Assembly: GCF_001014645.1 (NCBI RefSeq)
Contig: NZ_LASZ01000002.1
Coordinates: 1-64,000, forward strand
Source: Luteimonas sp. FCS-9
GTDB lineage: Bacteria; Pseudomonadota; Gammaproteobacteria; Xanthomonadales; Xanthomonadaceae
Direction of reading: 5' to 3'
Length of the DNA stretch: 64,000 nt
The notes below the pieces were generated by a model. The model saw nothing but the letters and a program-made list of their open reading frames with translations, was not told where the DNA came from and did no database searches. Below are positions 6,775 through 19,173 of this stretch, one piece after another. The position numbers and the translations under genes were made by a program. The first letter of the stretch is position 1. Each line of letters begins with the position of its first letter.

Positions 6775-6973
6775 CGGGGCGGCGGCGGTGTTGGATGCGG
6801 CTTCGCGATGCGTCACACCTGGCTCCGGCGCCCGGAAAGCCGCGCATCGTACCGCTTTACGCGCAGGCCCGTCGCGTTCCTGCGCTCGCGCATGCGGATG
6901 CCCGCTCGCGCCTGCGGCCCAGCCCCTCCTATTCGATGCAGCGTCGAAGGCGGACACGACGGTCTCCAGCTGA

Positions 6974-9436
6974 CTACCGCAGCAATGCCGCGACTCCCTT
7001 CAGCGTGTCCTGCACCGCAGTCAACCGCCGCGAAGCTTGGGCATCCTTCTGGACGTTCGGATTCAACCCGGCGGCCAAGGCGTCGAGCTCGGAGGCCAAG
7101 CGCGGGTCTTTCGCGCTGGCCTCGACGCTGGCGTGGGCCTTGTCCAAGGCCTCGACCAATGCGGTCACCGCACTGGGGGACAGGACCTGGGTGCGCTGCA
7201 ATTGATCCACGTACGCGCGCGCCACGACCGGATGAGCGGGCCAGGACACCGGGAACTGCTGCTGCGGGTTGAACGTACTGCCCTGGTCGGCGAGCGCAGC
7301 GGCCGCAATCTCGGCCTCGGTCAGGTACTCGCTGGCTTCGAGCGCAAGCACGTCCAGGCCACGCACGATCTCGGTCCCGTAGATGCGCCCGCCATACCAG
7401 TAGGCCGACCAGTAGCCGCCCACGATTAGGTGCTTGTCGTCAATCGGTCCACGATCGAAATAGGCGATCTCGAGGGGATTGGCCGAGTCGGTGAAGTCGA
7501 TTACCGAAATGCCGCCCTGGTACCAAGCCTGGACGAAGATGTCGCGGCCGGGCACGGGGATGATCGAGCCATTGTGGGCGACGCAGTTCTCCCGCTCGTT
7601 CTGGGCCGCCGGCAGCTTGAAGTAGCTACGAAACTCCAGCTTTCTGCCGTCGACGATGTCGTAGATCGCGTTCGCACCCCACGTCAGCGGATCCTGCACG
7701 CGGCAACGCGGACGCCCGCCGCCGCCCCATTCGTCGGTGAACAGCACCTTGGTCCCGTCGTTGTTGAAGGTGGCCGAGTGCCAGTAGGCGAAGCCCGGGT
7801 CGCCAACGGCATCGACGCGCCTGGGGGCAAGCGGATCGCCGATGTCGAAAATGAGGCCGTTGCCCGAGCAGGCGCCGGCGGCCAGATTCCGCGACGGGAA
7901 CACGGTGATGTCGTGACAATGGTCGGTACGGCTGGTGATCTGGGTGCCCTCGCCGTGGTCGCCGCCCTGCCACAGGCCGGCGATCTGCCCGATCTGGGGG
8001 TCGGCAAAGACCGTCGGGCTGTCGACGATGCGCGAGCCGGACGGGTTGGCGAGCGGGATTTCGATGACGTCGACGCGGAACAGGGCGGTGCGGTCGTCGC
8101 CCGACACCGGGCCGATGCAGCCCGCCAGCTCGCGCTCGTCCCGGATTGCAGCGGTGCCGGAGTTGTAGACGATGATCTTCTCGTCGTCGGCCGACACCAC
8201 CGAATGGGTGTGCGAGCCACGACAGGTCTGGACCTGGCCCACCTGCACCGGACTCAGGGGATTGCTGATGTCGAAGATGCGCAGACCACGGAACCGGTCG
8301 GCGCTGACGTCCTCGGCGACGCCCTGGCGGCCGCAGTCCACCCGCGCGGTGGTCTGCTCCACCGACATGAGCAGCAGATCGCCGACGATGGACACATCGC
8401 CCTGCCCGCCCGGGCACACCACCGACGCGATCGGTCGCGGTACGCCGTTCTCGCCCAGGCGATAGAGGTTGAACCCGTGGTAGTTGCCGGCGGCCAGCAG
8501 ATCGCCGGAAAACGCCATGTCGGTATTGGAGAAGTTGCGGAACGGCGAACGCCGGGACTTCTCGTCGTCCGGTTTCTCGTCGTCCTTGCCCTCCTCGTCG
8601 CCCGCCTTGTTTTGCCCGTCCTTCTCCGGCACGGGCGGCGGCAGGTCCGCCGGGTTGCCGGGATCGTAGAAACCGGACGGCCTGGGCAGGCTGGCGACCA
8701 AGCGCAGATTGCGGACCGCCTCCCCGCCATCCCTGAAGCCCGCGGCGAGTTTCGAACGCGGGTCCTCCGACAATTCACGCGATGCCGCGGCCATGCGGCG
8801 GATTTCGCCCTTCTGCTCGTTGGTTACGTCGGTGACGAACTCGAACAGCACCGGGTCGTGGACCGAGCCGGGCCTCTTCAGCAGCTCCTCGACCATCTTC
8901 AAGGCGCCTTCGTGATGGGCGATCATCCGCTCCAGGAACAGCCGATCGAAGTCCGGGCCGCTGGCGGCCGCCAGTTCGGCCATCTGCTCGGGCGTCGCCA
9001 TCCCCGCCATCGTGCTGGAGTCGTGGCCGTGGTGCATGGCGTGCGTGTCGGCGGCCGGATCAGGCGCCGTCTGGCCGCGTTCGCGCAACCAGGTCTGCAT
9101 GAAAGCGATCTCGTCGGCCTGCGACGCATCGATCCGCCCGGCCACGTCGATCAGCGTCTTGCGGTTGGTGCGGTCCCGCACCAAGGCGACCATCTGCACG
9201 GCCTGGTGATGGTGCAGGATCATGTGTTGCATGAACCGCACGTCGTCCGGCGAGTAACGGTTGTCAGCGATTTTCGCCGCCTCCTCCGCCGTGAGCGGAC
9301 GGGTCGCCTGACCTGGAGCCCCGGGCTGGAGGATGGGCGCGTCCTGGGCCATCGCGCCCCCGGCGGCCACGGTCATGCCGAGGATGGCGCCGCCGAGGAT
9401 CAGGCAAACGGATGAGCTTGCGGTGTTGGTTGACAA
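6974..9436 (-). CDS. Secreted DUF305 and LVIVD-repeat protein
   Basis: This is an exported 820-residue protein of unknown function. A signal peptide (hydrophobic run at residues 9-27, AMA before QDAP) is followed by a DUF305 domain (about 45-235) with His/Met-rich metal-binding-like segments FMQHMILHHHQAVQM, HAMHHGHDSSTM and MIAHHEGALKM. A low-complexity acidic/lysine linker (about 265-300) leads to an LVIVD-type beta-propeller (GLRIFDISNP, GGISVIDFTDSANP, GLDVLALE). DUF305 includes cyanobacterial CopM, a copper-binding protein, so metal binding is a family-based inference. The start is a TTG at 9436, chosen because it retains the signal peptide. A Zur-like dyad lies 273 bp upstream, suggesting zinc control. 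Confidence 0.8.
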   Translation of the reverse strand: MSTNTASSSVCLILGGAILGMTVAAGGAMAQDAPILQPGAPGQATRPLTAEEAAKIADNRYSPDDVRFMQHMILHHHQAVQMVALVRDRTNRKTLIDVAGRIDASQADEIAFMQTWLRERGQTAPDPAADTHAMHHGHDSSTMAGMATPEQMAELAAASGPDFDRLFLERMIAHHEGALKMVEELLKRPGSVHDPVLFEFVTDVTNEQKGEIRRMAAASRELSEDPRSKLAAGFRDGGEAVRNLRLVASLPRPSGFYDPGNPADLPPPVPEKDGQNKAGDEEGKDDEKPDDEKSRRSPFRNFSNTDMAFSGDLLAAGNYHGFNLYRLGENGVPRPIASVVCPGGQGDVSIVGDLLLMSVEQTTARVDCGRQGVAEDVSADRFRGLRIFDISNPLSPVQVGQVQTCRGSHTHSVVSADDEKIIVYNSGTAAIRDERELAGCIGPVSGDDRTALFRVDVIEIPLANPSGSRIVDSPTVFADPQIGQIAGLWQGGDHGEGTQITSRTDHCHDITVFPSRNLAAGACSGNGLIFDIGDPLAPRRVDAVGDPGFAYWHSATFNNDGTKVLFTDEWGGGGRPRCRVQDPLTWGANAIYDIVDGRKLEFRSYFKLPAAQNERENCVAHNGSIIPVPGRDIFVQAWYQGGISVIDFTDSANPLEIAYFDRGPIDDKHLIVGGYWSAYWYGGRIYGTEIVRGLDVLALEASEYLTEAEIAAAALADQGSTFNPQQQFPVSWPAHPVVARAYVDQLQRTQVLSPSAVTALVEALDKAHASVEASAKDPRLASELDALAAGLNPNVQKDAQASRRLTAVQDTLKGVAALLR

Positions 9437-9875
9437 GAGCGCCCCCGATATTCGATTCCTAGCCGAGCGTGATGCCCGCTCATTCGACAGACGGCGACGC
9501 CGTAGCTCAGCAAACGAGCAGACCGGCGACCCGATCCTCTATTTGAAGCTTCCCCCGCGCTAGACAGCGCGTTGCGCGGTCCAACGTACCGCTGTCCTCA
9601 CCGAGTGGGTTCATTCTCGAGTATGAGCAGATTGTTGCTCGACCGGTTCGCCGACCGCACGACGAGGCGACTTGTACTCGAGGTGGGCCGGAACCCTTGA
9701 ACCACAATTGTTACCTTGTAACACATTTGCTCACGGTGGAGGCGCGCTGGACACCTGCGCGCCCCGATGTCCGGGGTCTTTCCCTGTCCCGCCGGAGCAA
9801 GAAGCCGATGTCGCCCGACACCGGCTTACTTCGCGAGGAGGACTACGGGGCGCCAGCGGCGCGCCGCTCCGACCA
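9437..9875. other. 439-bp intergenic region upstream of the DUF305 gene
   Basis: No convincing gene lies here. It contains the 3' flank of the S9 peptidase gene and the presumed promoter of the DUF305/LVIVD gene, including the Zur-like dyad at 9709-9723. A short ORF opening with TTG at 9707 has no recognisable features. Confidence 0.6.
9709..9723 (-). promoter_or_regulatory. Candidate Zur operator upstream of the DUF305 gene
   Basis: TGTTACCTTGTAACA is a perfect 6-bp inverted repeat with a 3-bp spacer. It has the same architecture as the dyads at 14502 and 18156, and resembles the gammaproteobacterial Zur half-site TGTTAT/ATAACA. The next gene in the minus direction is the DUF305/LVIVD gene. 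Zur binding is inferred. Confidence 0.6.
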
Positions 9876-11966
9876 TCAAGGCGTAGCCGCCTCATTACCG
9901 CCCGAGGCCGGCGTGGCTCCCCTTGGCTGACTGCGATAGCGTTCCATCCAGCCAAGCGTGCCAAGCACCTGGTTGAGCGTCTCGGTCGGACGTGCACCGA
10001 TGCCATGCGAGGCGCCCGGAATGCGCAACATCGCGGTGTCCACCCGGCGCAGCTTCAGTGCCTGGTAGAACTGTTCGGTTTGCGGAATGGGCGTACGCAG
10101 ATCGTCCTCACCGGTGATCAGCATCGTCGGTGTCGTCACGTTGCCGACGTAAGCCAGCGGCGACCGCTTCCAGTAGTGATCGAACGCCTCCCACGGCGGC
10201 CCCGGGAACCAGTACTGGGTGAAGTACGGGTACATGTCGGCAGTCAGCACGAAGCTGGTCCAGTCGATCACCGGCTTGGCCACGACCGCGGCCTTGAAGC
10301 GGTCGGTGTGGCCGACGATCCACGCGGTCAGCGTGCCGCCACCGGAGCCACCGGTAACGTAGAGCTGGTCCGGATCGGCGACGCCTTGGGCGATCGCCGT
10401 GTCCACCGCGCTCATCAGGTCGTCATAGTCCCGGCCGGGATAGTTGTGGTGGATGTGGTCGGCGAAGGCCTGGCCGTAGCCGGTGCTGCCCCGCGGATTG
10501 ACGTACAACACCGCGTAGCCGGCGCTGGCGTAGAGCTGGGTCTCGGCAGCGAAGCTCGGACCGTAGGCGGCGAACGGCCCGCCGTGGATCTCAAGCAGCA
10601 GGGGATAGCGCTGGCCCTCGCGGTACTGCGGCGGCTTCACCAGCCAGGCCTGCACGTCGAGACCATCGGCGGAGGACTTGAACCAGAAGTCCTCGACCTG
10701 TCCGAGTTGCTTGTAGTCGAGGACGTCGCCGTTGAGGTCGGTCAGCACGCGCGGCCTGCCGCCACGCTGCACCACCGCCAGATCGGCCGGTCGGTCGACC
10801 GAACTGCGGGTATAGACGACGCGGTCGCCGGCCACCGACAACGCGCCCCCGGTGTAGGGACGGCCGATCGACGTGCCGCCGAAGTCGTCGGTCAACGTCT
10901 GCATCCGGCCGCCGCCTGCATCGATCCAGGCGATGTGGCCGCGCCCCTCGCGCTCGTAGCTGAAGTACAGCCCCCGGCCATTGCGGTCCCACTGCGGATC
11001 GGCTACCGGGTAATCGAAATCCGCGGTCAGCGCGCGGGAACGCCCGCTCTGCAGGTCGAGCAAGTACAGGTGGGTCACCTGGTGCCCCTTGCGTTCGTCG
11101 TCATAGCCGACATAGGCCAACTGCCGCCCGTCCGGAGAAAGCACGGGCTGTTCGTCCGGACCGCGCCTGTCGGTCAACGCGGCGACGGCGCCGCTGGCCA
11201 GATCCAGCCGATAGATCTCGCTCTCGCGCGGCTGGTACTCCCACTCCGGTGACTGGTTGGATACCACGTACAGCGAGCGCCCGTCCCGATCCCACACGGG
11301 CGAACGGTGGCTGAAGTCGCCGCGGCTGACCTGGCGCGGCGTGCCGCCGTCGGCCGGAATCACGAAGACGTGGCGATAGCCTGGACGGGTGTAGCCGGCG
11401 CCATCGGCCCGGTAGCCGACACGATCGATGTACTTGGCCTGCGGCGCCCACTCCGCGCCTTCCGGCTTCGACGGCAGTTTGATCTGGGGCTCGGTGTCCG
11501 CTTCCACCGCCATGGTGAACGCGATGCGGCGGCCATCCGGGGACCAGGACAGATCGGACGGCGGTTGGGGCAACCAGCCCAGCGCCACCTGGCGACCGCC
11601 ATCCTTCCAGCGCACCATGATCTGTGCGCGCTCACCGTTTCGTGCGATCCACGCCACCCGGCTTCCGTCCGGCGACCATGTGGCATTGCTGCCCGCCGCG
11701 TCCTCACCCAGCGGCACCTGCCGGCCGCTGTCCACATCCAGCAGCCACAGCCGGCTGAGCCGGCGGTCCCTCAGGATGTCGTAGCCCTGTCGCTGGTAGA
11801 TGACCTGCCGACCGTCCGGCGACAAGGCCGGGGCGTCGGCCCATTCCAGGTCGAACAGATCGCGCGGCTGCAGGTAGCGCGGATCCTCGTGCAACCCCGT
11901 CGCCGCGCACACCAGCGGCAACCACGACACCACCACCACCAGCAGGCGACTCACCCCTTTGGCCAT
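9876..11966 (-). CDS. Secreted S9 family (prolyl oligopeptidase-type) peptidase
   Basis: This serine peptidase should cleave peptides outside the cytoplasm. The 696-residue protein starts with a signal peptide (MAKGVSRLLVVVVSWLPLVCA). A WD40-like beta-propeller follows (LSPDGRQVIYQR, WSPDGSRVAWIA, WSPDGRRIAF), then a C-terminal alpha/beta hydrolase domain. The nucleophile lies in TGGSGGG, the acid in GEDDLRTPI and the histidine in GASHGIG, so the triad is complete. GGGAGG precedes the ATG at 11966. It lies between the M3 peptidase and the DUF305 gene on the same strand; no Zur-like dyad was seen directly upstream. Confidence 0.93.
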   Translation of the reverse strand: MAKGVSRLLVVVVSWLPLVCAATGLHEDPRYLQPRDLFDLEWADAPALSPDGRQVIYQRQGYDILRDRRLSRLWLLDVDSGRQVPLGEDAAGSNATWSPDGSRVAWIARNGERAQIMVRWKDGGRQVALGWLPQPPSDLSWSPDGRRIAFTMAVEADTEPQIKLPSKPEGAEWAPQAKYIDRVGYRADGAGYTRPGYRHVFVIPADGGTPRQVSRGDFSHRSPVWDRDGRSLYVVSNQSPEWEYQPRESEIYRLDLASGAVAALTDRRGPDEQPVLSPDGRQLAYVGYDDERKGHQVTHLYLLDLQSGRSRALTADFDYPVADPQWDRNGRGLYFSYEREGRGHIAWIDAGGGRMQTLTDDFGGTSIGRPYTGGALSVAGDRVVYTRSSVDRPADLAVVQRGGRPRVLTDLNGDVLDYKQLGQVEDFWFKSSADGLDVQAWLVKPPQYREGQRYPLLLEIHGGPFAAYGPSFAAETQLYASAGYAVLYVNPRGSTGYGQAFADHIHHNYPGRDYDDLMSAVDTAIAQGVADPDQLYVTGGSGGGTLTAWIVGHTDRFKAAVVAKPVIDWTSFVLTADMYPYFTQYWFPGPPWEAFDHYWKRSPLAYVGNVTTPTMLITGEDDLRTPIPQTEQFYQALKLRRVDTAMLRIPGASHGIGARPTETLNQVLGTLGWMERYRSQPRGATPASGGNEAATP

Positions 11967-12309
11967 CGTCTTCCCCCTCCCGTTGAGTTTTATCTTGGCA
12001 TCGCCGCGTCGGTCGCGTGCTAGGCCGTGCTTGTCGCCGCATCCCCGCCCCGCCCAGTAGGCAAGCGCGCCCGCACTCGCGCCATCTCAGTCCCCTTCCG
12101 GGTGCGGATCGCGCCGCTATCACCAACCCGGCGGCGAGGTCCACATTGGATCGTCGTTGGAGTTGGCAATTCGCGGCAGCCGGCAGGCGCCTTGATCGCA
12201 CTTGCCCTGTGACGTCCGTCGCTGAGCACATCTTTGAAGCAGTGGCGGCAGGCACTGGACGATCTGGCGGCCCCGGATCGACCCGCACATCATCGTGATG
12301 CCAGGGGCG
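11967..12309. other. 343-bp intergenic region between the M3 and S9 peptidase genes
   Basis: No credible gene was found. It should carry the S9 peptidase promoter, since a strong GGGAGG ribosome site lies next to its start. No dyad matching the three Zur-like sites and no clear terminator after the M3 gene were found. Confidence 0.5.
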
Positions 12310-14436
12310 TCATTTGAGGCCACGGTTGCGCAGCAGCGCATCGGCATTGGGCAGACGTCCGCGAAAGCCGATGTAGCTCTCGGACGGGTCGCGCGTATTG
12401 CCGCGCTCGTACACTTCGCGGCGCAGCTTGCCTGCCAGCTCCGGGTCGAACACGTCGCCCGCTTCCTTGAACGCATCGAAGCCATCGGCGTCCATCGCTT
12501 CGGCCCACGTGTAGGCGTAGTAACTGGCCGAATAGCCACCATCGAAGATGTGGCTGAAGTGCGGCAGACGATGGCGCATGCCGATTTCGTCCGGGACGCC
12601 AAGCTCGCGCAGTTGCGCCGCTTCCCAATCCCGCGCATTGAAGCCTGCCGGCAGTTCGGTCAACGTGTGCAGGCGCATGTCGAGGATCGCGGACGAGAGC
12701 TGCTGGACGGTGAGGAAGCCCTGGTTGAACGTTTGCGCGTCGAGCAGCGCCTGCAGCATCGGTTCGGGCATTGGCTCGCCAGCGGCATTGCGTGCGTGCG
12801 CACGCAGGATCGAGGGCTCGGTGATCCAGTGTTCGTAGACCTGCGAGGGGAATTCAACGAAGTCGCGCGGGACTGCGGTGCCCGACAGGCTCGGGTAATG
12901 CGCCTTGGACAGCAGCCCGTGCAGCCCGTGCCCGAACTCGTGGAACAGGGTCCGCGCCTCGTCGATCGAGATCAGCGCAGGCTGCCCTTCCGCCGGCGGC
13001 GGAATGTTCTGGTTGTTGACCACGATCGGGCTGTCGCCGAGCAGGCCGTTGGGAACGCGGATACTGTTCATCCATGCACCGGGACGCTTGGTGGGGCGCG
13101 CGAACCAGTCGGCATAGAACAAGCCGAGCTTGCTGCCGTCTGCCTCGCGAATCTCGAACACGCGCACGCCGTCGGCGTAGACCGGGATGTCCTTGCGCTC
13201 GTGCGCGGTGAGTCCGAACAATTTCTGCGTGGTCTCGAACAGCGCATCGACCATGCCCTCCAGCGGCATGTACTGCTTGACCTCGGCTTCGTCGAGCGAG
13301 AAGCGCTCGCGGCGGACCTGCTCGGCGTAGTAGCGCCAATCCCAGGGCTCGACGTCCGTGATGCCGTCCTTCGCGGCGAGCGCCTCGATGTCCCGCAGCT
13401 CCTCCTTCGAACGCGCCAGCGCGGGCTGGTAGACCGCCATCAACAGTTCCATGGCGGCGTCGGTGGTCTTTGCCATCGAGTCTTCCAGGACGAAGTCCGC
13501 GTGACTCCTGGCGCCCATCAGCTTCGCGCGTTCGGCGCGCAGCTCGACGAGCCTGGCGATGACCGCACTGGTGTTGTTGGCGTTGTCGTTGTCGCCACGG
13601 AGCGTGAAGGCCCGCCAGATTTTCTCCCTGGCCCCCCGATCAGGCGCCGAGGTCAGGAACGGCTCTGCAGCCGAGCGCGTCGCAGGGAACAGGTAATGCC
13701 CAGGCTGGCCCGCGGCCTCTGCCGCAGCCGCCGCAGCGCCGGCCTGGTCGCCTGGGAGCCCGTCGACTTCGGCCGCGGTCAACAGCACGTCGTTGGCCTT
13801 CTGGTCGGCCAGCAACTTTTGACCGAACTCGACGCCAAGGTTGGCGAGTTCTTCGTTGATCGCCGCGACGCGCTCGCGCGCAGCAGGAGAGAGCGCCGCG
13901 CCCGCGCGTACGAACCGCTTGCGGGTCTCCTCCAACAGGCGGGTCTGTTCGGGGTTCAGCCCGAGCTCCGCGCGCTTCCTGTACAGCGTATCGACGCGCC
14001 GGAACAGCGCTTGATCGAGCAGTGTTTCGTTGGACAGCCGCGCCAGTTTCGGCGCAACGTTCTTCTGGATCGCCTGGTTGGCCGGAGTCGCGTCCGCAGA
14101 GGCCACGGTGAAGAATGTGCTCGACACCCTGGCCAGCTGCCGACCCGAACGCTCCATGGCTTCGATGGTGTTCTCGAATGTCGGCTCGGACGGATCGTTG
14201 GCGATCTGGACGCTCTGTGCCCGGGCTTCCGCGATCGCCCGGTCGAACGCCGGCTCGTAGTGCTCGGGCCGGATGCGATCGTATGGCGGCACGCCCTCGG
14301 GCGTCTCCCAGGCGGCCAGTAGCGGATTGGCGGTCTGTTCGACCCGTGCCTCGACGGGCTGCGCTGCGATCGGCTGGCTGCCTGCCAGGAACGCCGCCGC
14401 GATCGCGGTGGACAGAAGACACGTACGAAGAACCAT
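12310..14436 (-). CDS. dcp: Secreted M3 family peptidyl-dipeptidase (Dcp-like)
   Basis: Dcp-type enzymes are zinc metallopeptidases that remove C-terminal dipeptides. The 708-residue protein has a signal peptide (CLLSTAIAAAFLAGSQPIAAQ) and the active-site motif HEFGHGLHG, with the third ligand expected in the FVEFPSQVYEHW segment. The helical N-terminal domain and the C-terminal GGYSASYYAYTWAEAMDADGFDAF are typical of the family. GGAG precedes the ATG at 14436. A Zur-like dyad lies 66 bp upstream, next to the cysS remnant, so this zinc enzyme may be induced under zinc limitation. Confidence 0.93.
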   Translation of the reverse strand: MVLRTCLLSTAIAAAFLAGSQPIAAQPVEARVEQTANPLLAAWETPEGVPPYDRIRPEHYEPAFDRAIAEARAQSVQIANDPSEPTFENTIEAMERSGRQLARVSSTFFTVASADATPANQAIQKNVAPKLARLSNETLLDQALFRRVDTLYRKRAELGLNPEQTRLLEETRKRFVRAGAALSPAARERVAAINEELANLGVEFGQKLLADQKANDVLLTAAEVDGLPGDQAGAAAAAAEAAGQPGHYLFPATRSAAEPFLTSAPDRGAREKIWRAFTLRGDNDNANNTSAVIARLVELRAERAKLMGARSHADFVLEDSMAKTTDAAMELLMAVYQPALARSKEELRDIEALAAKDGITDVEPWDWRYYAEQVRRERFSLDEAEVKQYMPLEGMVDALFETTQKLFGLTAHERKDIPVYADGVRVFEIREADGSKLGLFYADWFARPTKRPGAWMNSIRVPNGLLGDSPIVVNNQNIPPPAEGQPALISIDEARTLFHEFGHGLHGLLSKAHYPSLSGTAVPRDFVEFPSQVYEHWITEPSILRAHARNAAGEPMPEPMLQALLDAQTFNQGFLTVQQLSSAILDMRLHTLTELPAGFNARDWEAAQLRELGVPDEIGMRHRLPHFSHIFDGGYSASYYAYTWAEAMDADGFDAFKEAGDVFDPELAGKLRREVYERGNTRDPSESYIGFRGRLPNADALLRNRGLK

Positions 14437-14501
14437 GGTGTTGCTCCGGAACTGGGGGCGTGGCTGGAATCGGTCTTGGAACCGTGGACCGGCCGAGGAA
14501 A

Positions 14502-14516
14502 CGTTACTGTATAACG
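14502..14516 (-). promoter_or_regulatory. Candidate Zur operator upstream of the M3 peptidase gene
   Basis: CGTTACTGTATAACG has inverted CGTTA/TAACG arms and a 6-3-6 layout identical to the dyads at 9709 and 18156. It lies 66 bp before the M3 peptidase start and just beyond the end of the cysS remnant. Zur binding is inferred from similarity and context. Confidence 0.6.
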
Positions 14517-14544
14517 CAAAGCCCGTGTGAACCCATGTCGATGG

Positions 14545-14754
14545 TCATGCGTTTCGCGACCGCTGGAGCGAAAGGACAAGAGTTGGGTGCGCCAGCACAT
14601 CGAAGATCGTGGCCGGCCGGGCGTCGCCGCTGTGCGCGTCGTTGTAGACCTTTGGGCCGCCGCAGACATCGAGCGTCGCCCGGTCCGGCCGTCCGGTGTA
14701 CAGCGGCTCCTTGCGTCGCGACATCGTGTTGTGCAGATGGATCTGCAAGCTCAC
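14545..14754 (-). pseudogene. cysS: Truncated cysteinyl-tRNA synthetase N-terminus
   Basis: This 69-codon frame opens with GTG overlapping the stop of the preceding COG0523 gene (GTGA), so it is translationally coupled. Residues 1-52 follow the CysRS N-terminus: IHLHNTMSRRKEPL, then DVCGGPKVYNDAHSGDARP and TIFDVLA, matching the family's YVCGPTVYNDAHIGHARP. The cysteine of VCG is the first zinc ligand of CysRS. After FDVLA similarity stops and a short unrelated tail ends at 14545, so roughly 400 residues are missing. CysRS paralogs are known companions of COG0523 and folE2 in Zur regulons, so this is best read as the remnant of such a paralog. Confidence 0.75.
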
Positions 14755-15848
14755 GTCAGGTTCTCCCGCGGCTGTGGCAGGGCATGGCGCAGGATGTGAA
14801 ACGCCCCCTCGATCGTGCGTCGATCCACCTCGTGGGTGATGAACACCAGACGCGAGCGGCGATCCCCGTCGGGCCAGGCCGGCAGTCGCAGGGGCGGATG
14901 GAACACGTGCTGGACGCCGTGGACGACCAGCGGCCGCTCGTGGCCTTCGACGTTCAGGATGCCTTTGACCCGCAGGATGTCGCGACCGGCCAGGCCCATC
15001 AGCACTTCCAGCCAGAGGGTCAGAAGCGCCTCCGGGATAGGGTCGTCGATCGCGAAGCAGAACGCGCGGATGTGTTCATCGTGGCGGTTGACGTCGCCAT
15101 GTGGTTGGACGGACTCGGTCAAGGGCGTCATCCCCAGCTGGAACAGGACCGGCGGCTGGAGATAGGCTTCCTCCTGCAGCCACCGCGCCACATCCGGCGC
15201 TTTGTCCTCGATCGAGAACAGTCCCAGGTCGAGCAGCTTCTCCGCCGCGATTTCTCCATGGGTCACCTCCCAGCGCGGCGCCGCGGGATTGACGGCCGCC
15301 AGCCGACGCGACAACGCGTCACGCTGCGCATCGGTCGCCAGATCCGCTTTGGTCAGCAACAGCACATCGGCCATGGCCGCCTGCTTCGCCGCCTCACCGT
15401 GCCTGGCCAGACTCGACTGTCCCGTCGTCAGGTCGAGCGTCGCCACGATGCCATCGAGCCGGTAATGCGGCGCAACCTGCGGATGGGTCATCAGCGTATG
15501 CACGATCGGCACCGGGTCCGCCAGACCCGTGGTCTCGATCAGCACCCGGCGGAACTGCCGCCGACCGTCGCGCGCGAAGCGCCAGATGACCTCACGCAGC
15601 GTCTTGACCAGATCCCCGCGCACCGTGCAGCAGACGCAGCCGCTCCCCATTTCCACGACGAGCTGCTCGGTACTGTGCGCGACCAGCAAGTGGTCCAGCG
15701 CCATTTCGCCGAACTCGTTGATGATGACCAGCGCGTCGGCCAACGCCGGCTGGCGCACCAGATGGTTGAGCAGGGTGGTCTTGCCGCTGCCCAGAAATCC
15801 GGTCAACAGCGTGACGGGAATCCGCTCCTCGGAGGAGCCGGCGCTCAT
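14751..15848 (-). CDS. COG0523 (CobW/YeiR-type) GTPase, putative zinc metallochaperone
   Basis: COG0523 proteins are G3E-family GTPases that deliver metal to client enzymes. The 365-residue protein has Walker [15 protein letters not shown], the hallmark metal motif GCVCC in a [14 protein letters not shown] context, IETTGLADP and the guanine-specificity motif TKADL. A CobW C-terminal domain follows. The ATG at 15848 overlaps the folE2 stop (ATGA), so the two genes are coupled; its own stop overlaps the cysS remnant. This context of folE2 and a CysRS paralog marks the zinc-linked subset of COG0523. It differs in sequence from the upstream ZigA-type paralog. Confidence 0.92.
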
Positions 15849-16756
15849 CCGAGGCCTCCCCCGCCGGCCCAGGCGACCGCATCGTGCGGATGCAGGCTCT
15901 CCAGATGGCGGACATGGACGCGCAGATTCGCCGAGGTCTCGTGCAACGCCTCGTGGATACGCCTGGCCGCATCCTCGACGAACATCAGGTTCTGGCCATT
16001 GAGGGCCGCAAATGCCTGCTCGTCGGCGCGCTTGACCGCGGTCTGGACCGGTGTTCCCACGGCCTGCTCGACGCGGCCGATCAAGTCGAGCAATCCCAGA
16101 GTCGAGACGTCCGGCGCAACGTCTATCCCGACCTGCGCCTGGCTGCGCTGACTGTGCGGCGTGGCCAACGTCGCGTGGCGGCGCAGCCATGCCGCCACCG
16201 CGGCGGGCTCCACGGAGCCCGGCCCGGGGAACGCGGACAGGAATCCCCGCTCCACGAGCTGCCGGGACAGGGCGGCCGAGCATGGACAGGTCGAGGAGTA
16301 GCCGACCGTGACCAACGCTCGCAGCGTCAATACCTCGCCAATCAGCGCGGCATGGATCGTGACCGGATAGGCTTTCCAGCCCGCCAGTCCTTCGGACACG
16401 AGGGCTGGACGACGCACGAGCAGATCGAACGAGAGCCGCAGCCGGGCGTTTCGGCTGTTGCAGTCTCCATGGCTCGCGATCATGGCCTGCAGCAGCTGCC
16501 GCAGGCCCTCCGGAGACAGCGCGGCATCCTCGCCCAGTCCATCGTCCAACAGGCGGTACAGCCTCGACATGTGGATGCCCTTGACGTGTGTCGCCGGCAG
16601 ATCGACCTGCGCATCGGCTCGCGCATGCAGCACGCGCCGATAGCCTGGCTCTGCCAGCAGGACGGGCAGGTCGATGCCCTGCATGCCCACCCACTCCAGC
16701 GGACTCGCGCCGGATGCGGCTTCGGTCAACGAGACATCGGGGAGAGGCAGATTCAT
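15845..16756 (-). CDS. folE2: GTP cyclohydrolase IB (zinc-independent FolE2)
   Basis: FolE2 makes dihydroneopterin triphosphate from GTP for folate synthesis and can replace zinc-dependent FolE when zinc is scarce. The 303-residue product begins [10 protein letters not shown] and has family features: [18 protein letters not shown] and the catalytic cysteine region [13 protein letters not shown]. An upstream extension of the frame has no family similarity, so the ATG at 16756 is preferred. It lies 73 bp downstream of zigA and overlaps the next COG0523 gene by four bases, consistent with one Zur-controlled operon. Confidence 0.94.
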
Positions 16757-16829
16757 GGACGCGCTCGGGATCGGAGAGAAGAAGGAACAACGCCCCCGCT
16801 CGCAGCGGGAGCAGAGGGATACCTGGCGC

Positions 16830-18062
16830 TCAGGGCCATTCGGGGAAGGGGTTGGGCCAACTCGCCCATACCGTCGGGCCAAGGGCCATCTCGTCGTCGG
16901 TGAGCAGGCAGGCGTCGAGATCCGCGCGCAGGGCGGCTTCATCCATGTCCATCCCGATCAGCACGATCTCCTGGCGTGCGTCGCCGACACCGTCGAGCCA
17001 GTGCTTGCGAACCAGCTCGACCGATTCGGGATCGCGCGGCCAGCGCTCGATCGGCACGGCCACCCACCAGTAACCCACCGGGTTGTGACGGGAGATCGCG
17101 CCCGCCTGCGACCAGGATCCGACCAGCGTCGGATGACTCGCCAACCAGAAGTGCCCCTTGGATCGCACCACGCCCGGCCAGCGGCTGTTGGCGAGCGCCG
17201 CGAATCTCTGGGGATGGAACGGCCTTCTCGCGCGGTAGACGAAACTGCGGATGCCGTACTCCTCGGTTTCCGGCGTGTGCTCACCGCGTAACGCCTTGAG
17301 CCAGCCGGGCGCTCTCGACGCTTCCTCGAAATCGAACAGGCGCGTTTCGAGCACTCGGTCCAGTGGCACCCGCCCGAACTCGGCGACCTCGATCCTCGCG
17401 CGCGGATTGAGGCGTCGCAGGATCCCCATCAGCTGCTCGCGCTCGTCGTCGCTGATCAGATCGACCTTGTTGAGTACGATCACGTCGCAGAATTCGACCT
17501 GGTCGATCAACAGGTCGACAACCGTGCGCGGGTCCTGGGGGCCCAGCGATTCACCACGTGATTGCAAGCTGTCCCGTGAACCGTAGTCACGCAGGAAGTT
17601 GAAGGCATCGACCACGGTGACCATCGTGTCCAAGTGCGCCACCTCGTTGAGGCTGCGCCCGTCTTCGCCTGCGAACGTGAAGGTTTCTGCCACCGGGAGG
17701 GGCTCGGAGATCCCGGTGGACTCGATGACGAGCTGGTCGAAGCGTCCTTCCTTCGCCAGCCGGTCGACTTCGACCAGCAGATCCTCCCGCAACGTGCAGC
17801 AGATGCACCCGTTGCTCATCTCGACCAGCTTCTCATCGGTGCGCGACAGTTCTGCACCGCCTTCGCGCACCAGCGCGGCGTCGATATTGACCTCCGACAT
17901 GTCGTTGACGATGACCGCCACGCGCCGGCCTTCGCGGTTGTTGAGAATGTGGTTGAGCAAGGTCGTCTTGCCTGCACCGAGGAAACCTGACAGGACGGTG
18001 ACAGGAAGCATTCTTTGCTGTGGGTTGGCGTCTGCTTTCATGGTTCGGCTGTGGACTTTCAT
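16830..18062 (-). CDS. zigA: ZigA-type COG0523 GTPase (zinc metallochaperone)
   Basis: This putative zinc chaperone is a G3E GTPase of 410 residues with Walker [25 protein letters not shown], the metal motif CICC in [21 protein letters not shown] and NKVDL. The C-terminal half ([34 protein letters not shown]) matches the ZigA/YeiR-like subgroup tied to zinc starvation. Possible ATG starts are 18062, 18041 and 18011; none has a strong ribosome site, so the start is uncertain. A 15-bp Zur-like dyad lies about 95 bp upstream. It heads the island operon. Confidence 0.92.
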
Positions 18063-18155
18063 GGCGGGAATGGAGCGAGAATTTCTCGGTTAATTGCTCG
18101 ATAGCGCCATGGGCTCGCCCTGTCAGTGCCTACATCGCGCCGCGTCTTTTAGTTA

Positions 18156-18170
18156 TGTTATAACGTAACA
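18156..18170 (-). promoter_or_regulatory. Candidate Zur operator upstream of zigA
   Basis: TGTTATAACGTAACA lies within a longer dyad-like sequence (GTTA before, TATC after). It closely resembles known gammaproteobacterial Zur sites, with TGTTAT/ATAACA-type half-sites and a 3-bp spacer. It precedes the ZigA-folE2-COG0523 operon, the classic type of Zur target. Confidence 0.75.
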
Positions 18171-18312
18171 TATCACAGCAAGCTGACTGTGCGACCGCTC
18201 CCCTTCACAAAGGGACTTATTGCGCCATCCTGCGTAACGAAACCCGCGCGCCCCCGCGGCGCCTCCTATCGCGGCATCACTTACGCAGCTGCCGCACCGC
18301 CCCCCGGCCGCC

Positions 18313-19173
18313 CTACTCGATGTTCTGCACCTGCTCGCGGATCTGGTCGATCAGCACCTTCAGCTCGATCGCCGCCTGCGAGCTGCGCTTGTCGACCGAC
18401 TTGGAGCCGAGCGTGTTGGCCTCGCGGTTGAACTCCTGCAGCAGGAAGTCCAACCGCCGGCCGACGGGTTCGCGCTGGGCGAACACGCGGCGGATCTCGT
18501 CGACGTGGCTGTCGAGCCGGTCGAGCTCCTCGTCGACGTCGAGCTTCTGCAGCCACAGCACCAGTTCCTGCTCCATGCGGCCCGGGTCGACCGGCTGGGC
18601 CAGGTCGTCCAGGCGCGCCTGCAGCTTCGCGCGCTGGCCCTCCCGGATCGCCGGCATCAGCGTGCGTACCTGGGCGGCGATCGCGGCGATGCCGTCGACC
18701 CGCTCCAGCGTCGCGGCCACGAGCTTGGCGCCCTCGCGCTCGCGCGCGGCGACGAAGCCGTCGAGCACCTCGTCGAGCAGCGCGACGACCTCGACCTGCA
18801 GCGCCGCCGGGTCCACGCCGCGCGACTGCAGCACGCCGGGGAACTGCAGCAGCTCGGTCAGACTGGCGCGCAGCTCGGGAAAGCCGGCACGCAGGTCCTG
18901 CGCCAGCTGGCCGAGCTGGTCGAGCAGCGCGCGGTTGAGCTGCAGCTCGCCGCCGCCCTCGGCCGGGCGCAACCGCAGCCCCAGATCCAGCTTGCCGCGG
19001 GAGACACGCGCGGCGATGCGCTCGCGCAGCACCGGCTCGAACGCCCGCAGCTCTTCGGGCATGCGCACGCCCAGTTCCAGGAACCGGTGGTTGACCGCCC
19101 GCAGTTCGCAGCTCAGCGTGCCCCAGGGCGTGGTGCGTTCGCCCGAGGCGAAGGCGGTCATGCTGCGGATCAT
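18313..19173 (-). CDS. yicC: YicC/YloC family endoribonuclease
   Basis: YicC-family proteins are endoribonucleases implicated in small-RNA turnover. The 286-residue product has the family start [13 protein letters not shown], the RAVNHRFLE segment and the conserved C-terminus [17 protein letters not shown], ending QVQNIE. A longer upstream frame overlaps rph antisense and is not used. In many relatives yicC lies next to gmk; here 11 kb of zinc-island genes separate them. It is divergent from rph, with 129 bp between the starts. Confidence 0.95.

Follow-up and report, generated by a model that had tools for sequence, protein, structure and literature searches.

What makes a bacterium switch on a zinc enzyme when zinc is scarce? 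Zur regulons reveal how bacteria cope without zinc, and a stretch of the Luteimonas sp. FCS-9 genome raises this question through an M3 peptidase gene that appears to belong to such a regulon, offering a concrete test both of why a zinc enzyme would be made at zinc scarcity and of whether peptide breakdown belongs to zinc acquisition. The stretch, referred to here as the window, covers the first 64 kb of contig C2; the genome as a whole measures 3.95 Mb. An initial annotation of the window had proposed three similar dyads, at 18156, 14502 and 9709, as Zur sites preceding a classic Zur operon, a secreted M3 peptidase gene and a DUF305 gene, respectively. The analysis indicates that the dyad at 14502 is quite probably a Zur operator, repressing a secreted Dcp-like M3 peptidase that would be derepressed under zinc shortage.

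The evidence computed for this consists of the 14502 box itself, its likeness to the boxes of COG0523 operons in the family, its recurrence in part of one M3 clade, and the zinc-related neighbours of M3 genes. At the 14502 dyad, which lies 66-80 bp upstream of the start codon, zinc-loaded Zur is predicted to bind and repress M3; with zinc shortage, Zur would be released and M3 would be made alongside ZigA, FolE2 and the zinc-uptake genes. Binding, repression and the function of M3 under Zur are all proposed here from sequence. The promoter at 18156 might also drive transcription of M3, as the stretch separating M3 from the second COG0523 gene yielded no terminator-like site.

Zur boxes in the window and the genome

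All three 15-mers were found where they had been placed, and inspection bore out their common 6-3-6 inverted-repeat plan, with matching arm positions of 5/6 at 18156, 5/6 at 14502 and 6/6 at 9709; the first, as claimed, precedes a zigA-folE2-COG0523 operon. The pattern TGTTAYNNNRTAACA, allowing up to two mismatches, had four matches in the window (one overlapping 18156), and in 100 dinucleotide shuffles of the window the mean was 0.33 matches and none reached four. Genome-wide, three exact sites, two with one mismatch and 38 in total at up to two mismatches were found, versus 28 at up to two mismatches for a control in which the pattern was read backwards. With 38 sites against 28, the 14502 site, which has two mismatches, is not significant genome-wide by mismatch count alone. 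Because such counts do not vouch for 14502, a matrix was trained on the COG0523 boxes of other Lysobacteraceae, in which 20 of 23 loci carry an upstream box at up to two mismatches, 17 of them exact.

Training used 13 distinct boxes upstream of COG0523 genes, with the window's genome excluded; since the same pattern had served to choose these boxes, the independence of the matrix extends to the window but not to the pattern. The window and selected stretches of genomes were scanned with it, the genome-wide counts being those of the pattern searches. The four highest scores in the window were at 18156 (29.2), 9709 (25.5), 18151 (18.5) and 14502 (18.4), followed by a next best of 7.3; the training boxes themselves ranged from 23.6 to 37.2. 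Scores of at least 18 occurred at 0.05 per Mb in Markov sequence of the window's composition and at 0.8 per Mb at intergenic composition, and the observed scores upstream of M3 (a 300-bp region), DUF305 and ZigA were each reached by 0 of 2000 shuffles. The earlier concern that equally good matches might lie at random positions in the genome thus has two sides: it holds by mismatch count (38 sites against 28), whereas by matrix 14502 is unusual.

A Zur-type protein is encoded in the genome as well. The FUR-family gene at C16:24033 scores 288 bits to structure 7dh7, the X. campestris protein, and 114 bits to E. coli Zur (4mtd); its NCBIfam Zur score of 133.7 is under the cut-off of 167. Together with the boxes at 20 of 23 Lysobacteraceae COG0523 loci, this makes the interpretation of the dyads as Zur boxes well supported. 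The three exact sites of the genome are 18156, 9709 and C7:83417, the last flanked on one side by a ZrgA zinc-uptake gene and on the other by a frame that by eye resembles MerC, followed by DUF1826 and superoxide dismutase (SOD) genes. Of the two sites with one mismatch, one separates an alkaline-phosphatase-like gene from a TonB receptor gene, and the other is upstream of a MerC gene located roughly 3 kb from zur. Two further boxes of the genome, C7:89904 and C26:24031, precede siderophore-type receptors and are perhaps not Zur sites. A match to the pattern therefore need not imply Zur in every case, and another dimeric repressor with a similar palindrome could be imagined to bind 9709 and perhaps 14502. 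Such a repressor is improbable, as the matrix was derived from COG0523 promoters and the exact sites 18156 and C7:83417 are at zinc genes.

The M3 box and its gene neighbours in relatives

Conservation at orthologues, named in the initial annotation as a check on the three sites, was found for 14502 at most of the genus orthologues and in part of a wider clade. This M3 is present in 9 of 52 genus genomes, and 6 of the 8 other orthologues have the box; in four of these it is located at -79 to -82 (-80 in the window), at up to two mismatches, within flanking DNA that has diverged. Half of the eight duplicate named records: G189, G176, G175 and G156 have upstream regions identical to those of L024, L025, L026 and L028, records among which are Luteimonas sp. 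9C and Luteimonas deserti. Among named genomes, represented by the best 80 of 581 loci, a box at up to two mismatches precedes M3 at 7 of 10 loci of at least 61% identity and at 2 of 70 loci below 52%, both from Pseudoalteromonas. No box was found upstream of the other Lysobacteraceae M3 loci of 41-50% identity (0 of 29 among the matches listed).

A tree with added relatives places the window's M3 protein in a clade, supported at 100/100, that has 23 sampled members, and 13 of these are linked to Zur. Ten are linked by a box of their own (the window's, L024, L025, L026, L028, L176, L179, L030, L031 and L032) and three by a box upstream of a zigA-type gene in the same gene run, namely L029, L198 and L203, with matrix scores of 24.0, 19.3 and 19.5. 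The score of the L032 box was reached by 14 of 2000 shuffles. The Pseudoalteromonas loci (L042, L044) have boxes by pattern, but are outside the clade and are excluded from the 23; the matrix over-scores AT-rich genomes, and hits before M3 in Pseudoalteromonas and Bacteroidota are therefore weak evidence. A phylum sample of 398 genomes contained one clade member besides the window's own, and a sample of 397 genomes from the family of that member contained eight, including it, of which L198 and L203 are Zur-linked. The Lysobacteraceae sample held 148 genomes besides the window's own, and none yielded an M3 of this clade, the best matches there being 50% identical.

Gene order around M3 in the alphaproteobacterial relatives again points to zinc. 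In L029, L198 and L203, from Sphingomonas or its family, a zigA-type gene is followed by DUF1826, M3 and a TonB receptor; beyond the receptor, L203 has an SOD match and L198 a partial one. In Erythrobacter (L032) the order is GTP cyclohydrolase I, TonB receptor, M3, SOD and COG0523. ZnuD is the sole NCBIfam match at E <=1e-60 of the receptor adjoining M3 in all four, at 298-316 bits, under the cut-off of 950. Hyphomonadaceae L030 has, about 2-6 kb downstream of M3, a Zur-like gene and a MerC-ZrgA-zigA-DUF1826 group that carries a box of its own, and in Brevundimonas L031 an SOD gene precedes M3. When zinc-cluster proteins were used as queries around M3 in the Lysobacteraceae relatives, the one match was an alkaline-phosphatase-like gene in L026.

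As an observation in its own right, the Erythrobacter genes form a cluster at L032:12-11215 in which a divergent run of CysRS-like (cysteinyl-tRNA synthetase-like), HisI-like and iron-type alcohol dehydrogenase genes stands alongside GTP cyclohydrolase I, the ZnuD-like receptor, M3, SOD and COG0523; the cluster is likely a zinc-starvation island.

Several findings weigh against a Zur operator at 14502. By mismatch count the site is no better than many of the 38 in the genome, and the matrix that singles it out shares its pattern with the search. No sigma-70-like promoter was seen in a scan at 18156, 14502 or 9709. Ten of the 23 clade members (L027, L178, L180, L033 and L204-L209) are unlinked, and L176 is linked by pattern only, its matrix score of 5.0 being reached by 48 of 2000 shuffles. 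Moreover, the product is a zinc enzyme made under zinc shortage, the benefit of which is not obvious. The genome-wide count of 38 against 28 and the ten unlinked members speak for a chance dyad, with M3 outside Zur control. That explanation is improbable in view of the matrix gap in the window (18.4 versus 7.3), the boxes at like positions upstream of orthologues despite diverged flanks, and the gene runs in common with zigA and ZnuD-like genes. The proposal that M3 is a Zur target is thus supported by boxes and zinc-gene neighbours in relatives, yet not by every member of its clade.

The M3 peptidase and its possible function

The M3 protein is full-length and matches Pfam Peptidase_M3 (376.5 bits, cut-off 27), and its nearest solved structures are those of E. 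coli Dcp and K-26 dipeptidyl carboxypeptidase (523 and 563 bits). At 597 bits to NCBIfam Dcp, under the cut-off of 944, it is Dcp-like and not assigned as Dcp itself. An HEFGH motif with a downstream glutamate (the HExxH...E zinc site, in which this glutamate is the third zinc ligand) is kept in all 23 clade rows of the alignment. The description of the gene product as a secreted M3 peptidase therefore stands as to family, through Pfam, and as to secretion depends on a start that, judged by eye, resembles a signal peptide. The genome has four M3 matches, one of them the window gene, and two of the others, which were placed in trees, are outside the window's clade. Paralogues of this M3 are located on C23 and C3.

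The most likely function, with not quite an even chance, is that of a backup periplasmic dipeptidyl carboxypeptidase that would serve when the housekeeping M3 paralogues lose their metal. This is the first choice for two reasons: Zur regulons hold spare paralogues, and some of those that follow Zur sites keep their zinc ligands (PMC2770081); and a different metallopeptidase family has known members under Zur control (PMC6381278).

A second choice, somewhat less probable and resting on the ZnuD-like neighbours of M3, keeps the same regulation and gives the enzyme another job. A ZnuD-like receptor would import peptide- or protein-bound zinc into the periplasm, where M3 would trim the carrier and free the zinc. 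The adjoining receptors of L029, L198, L203 and L032, the conserved zinc site and the likely export of M3 are consistent with this. However, no receptor is beside M3 in the window or in the Lysobacteraceae relatives examined, and the ZnuD matches are under the cut-off. This second choice comes near the extracellular zinc-scavenging or peptide-processing arm that had been suggested at first, which is possible for M3, a backup peptidase being at least as likely. Broader still, and unlikely at present, is the idea that the exported M3 clade is a mobile part of zinc-starvation clusters common to Lysobacteraceae and alphaproteobacteria, acting with a ZnuD-like receptor in periplasmic proteolytic zinc release under Zur; if so, the receptor would import zinc held by peptides or proteins and M3 would break the carrier.

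The box at 9709 and the DUF305 gene

The box at 9709 is reasonably likely to be a Zur-binding dyad, and its control of the DUF305 gene is doubtful. It is 273 bp from the TTG start codon of that gene, versus 20-108 bp upstream of the protein-match start for the boxes of COG0523 loci. The DUF305 protein (6974-9436, minus strand) combines a CopM-like domain with a choice-of-anchor B-like region, each an NCBIfam match under its cut-off; of its earlier label, DUF305/LVIVD, the first part was confirmed by Pfam, and no Pfam LVIVD match was obtained at E 0.001. CopM, itself a DUF305 protein, concerns copper. The DUF305 gene occurs in 1 of 52 genomes of the genus and in 7 of 149 of the family (its own counted in both), and no orthologue was found in the other 51 of the genus. 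No box at up to two mismatches was found in the flanks of orthologues across six other genomes (one match partial, one split), and the intergenic DNA at 9709 has no convincing conservation, with only scattered 20-53-base matches in 11 other genus genomes. The claim that DUF305 is a Zur target is therefore unsupported, given the distance, the near absence of the gene from the genus and the lack of a conserved box at orthologues.

The same findings would fit a box that is a relic or serves a target other than DUF305, for example a zinc gene lost between the box and DUF305, and the nearby CysRS-like fragment points to decay in the gene cluster. This is quite possible, if somewhat short of probable: at 25.5 the box is strong, and it is undamaged; no long minus-strand frame other than DUF305 lies downstream of 9709 before other genes; and no remains of a lost gene were identified.

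Features of the window and further Zur-like sites

The minus-strand genes of the locus, in order of decreasing coordinate, are ZigA-type COG0523, folE2, the second COG0523, a short CysRS-like frame, the M3 peptidase, an S9 peptidase and the DUF305 protein (Table 1). The short frame, at the end of the zigA-folE2-COG0523 run, had no Pfam match and is probably the relic of a spare cysS gene. No RNA families were found by Rfam in 6900-18400.

Table 1. Genes and predicted Zur boxes of the locus, in window coordinates
Feature	Coordinates	Strand	Evidence
Predicted Zur box (18156-18170) with overlapping second dyad at 18151	18151..18170		Matrix 29.2 and 18.5, window ranks 1 and 3; exact pattern match; box 94-108 bp upstream of zigA start codon
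COG0523 GTPase, ZigA type (zinc metallochaperone family)	16830..18062	-	NCBIfam ZigA 684.5 bits (cut-off 600); Pfam cobW
folE2, GTP cyclohydrolase	15845..16756	-	NCBIfam FolE2 304.9 bits (cut-off 215); Pfam GCHY-1
Second COG0523 GTPase	14751..15848	-	Pfam cobW and CobW_C
Short frame like N-terminal part of cysteinyl-tRNA synthetase	14545..14754	-	52% identity, residues 7-54, to L032 CysRS-like frame
Putative Zur box of M3 gene	14502..14516		Matrix 18.4; 66-80 bp upstream of M3 start codon
M3 peptidase, Dcp-like, signal-peptide-like N-terminus	12310..14436	-	Pfam Peptidase_M3; HEFGH motif with downstream Glu conserved
Strong Zur-like box of uncertain target	9709..9723		Matrix 25.5; exact pattern match; 273-287 bp upstream of DUF305 start codon
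DUF305 protein, exported; control from 9709 possible but unsupported	6974..9436	-	Pfam DUF305; sub-cut-off CopM and choice-of-anchor B

Outside the window, zur and, after it, a ZnuD-type receptor gene, L016:7698-10594 (G000:C16:21697-24593), share a strand and are separated by a box at C16:23872 (matrix 22.0). A Zur-like box also separates the alkaline-phosphatase-like gene L015:3173-4954 (G000:C7:74672-76453) from a divergently oriented TonB receptor gene, and a homologue matching the former at 70%, L026:4021-5481, is divergent from M3 across the L026 box; the alkaline-phosphatase-like gene is possibly a further Zur target in both. Another Zur-like dyad, TGTTATAAAATCACC at G000:C17:58485-58499 (L020; matrix 22.1), lies about 60 bp upstream of a DUF1415 gene.

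Comparison with known systems

Xanthomonas campestris belongs to the same bacterial family as the window's organism. A review tabulates znuABC, TonB receptors, a COG0523 gene and folE2 as targets of its Zur (PMC6103462). The Zur of the window's genome is near 7dh7. That tabulated list includes neither an M3 peptidase nor DUF305 (PMC6103462). The 15-bp palindrome is also the form of the Zur motif of Paracoccus denitrificans, whose GTAATATAATAACAT is one position off GTAATATCATAACAT upstream of the Brevundimonas M3 gene (L031); that paper does not use the word 'peptidase' (PMC5387054).

Among the open-licence papers searched, none describing an M3 or Dcp-type target of Zur was found. M23 and M3 peptidases differ in substrate and fold. 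ShyB of Vibrio cholerae is a Zur-controlled M23 cell-wall endopeptidase, whereas the window gene is M3; the likeness is that of a cell-envelope hydrolase under Zur (PMC6381278). The same paper terms ShyB EDTA-resistant, which would fit the idea of M3 as a backup (PMC6381278).

With Dcp and K-26 dipeptidyl carboxypeptidase, the window's M3 protein has in common full-length likeness and the HEFGH...E motif. The link to Zur marks the window's M3 clade and is not shared by the other Lysobacteraceae M3 loci tested. A recurrent Zur target of the M3 family would be new, and to judge from its boxes and neighbours it is a credible one, perhaps a backup peptidase.

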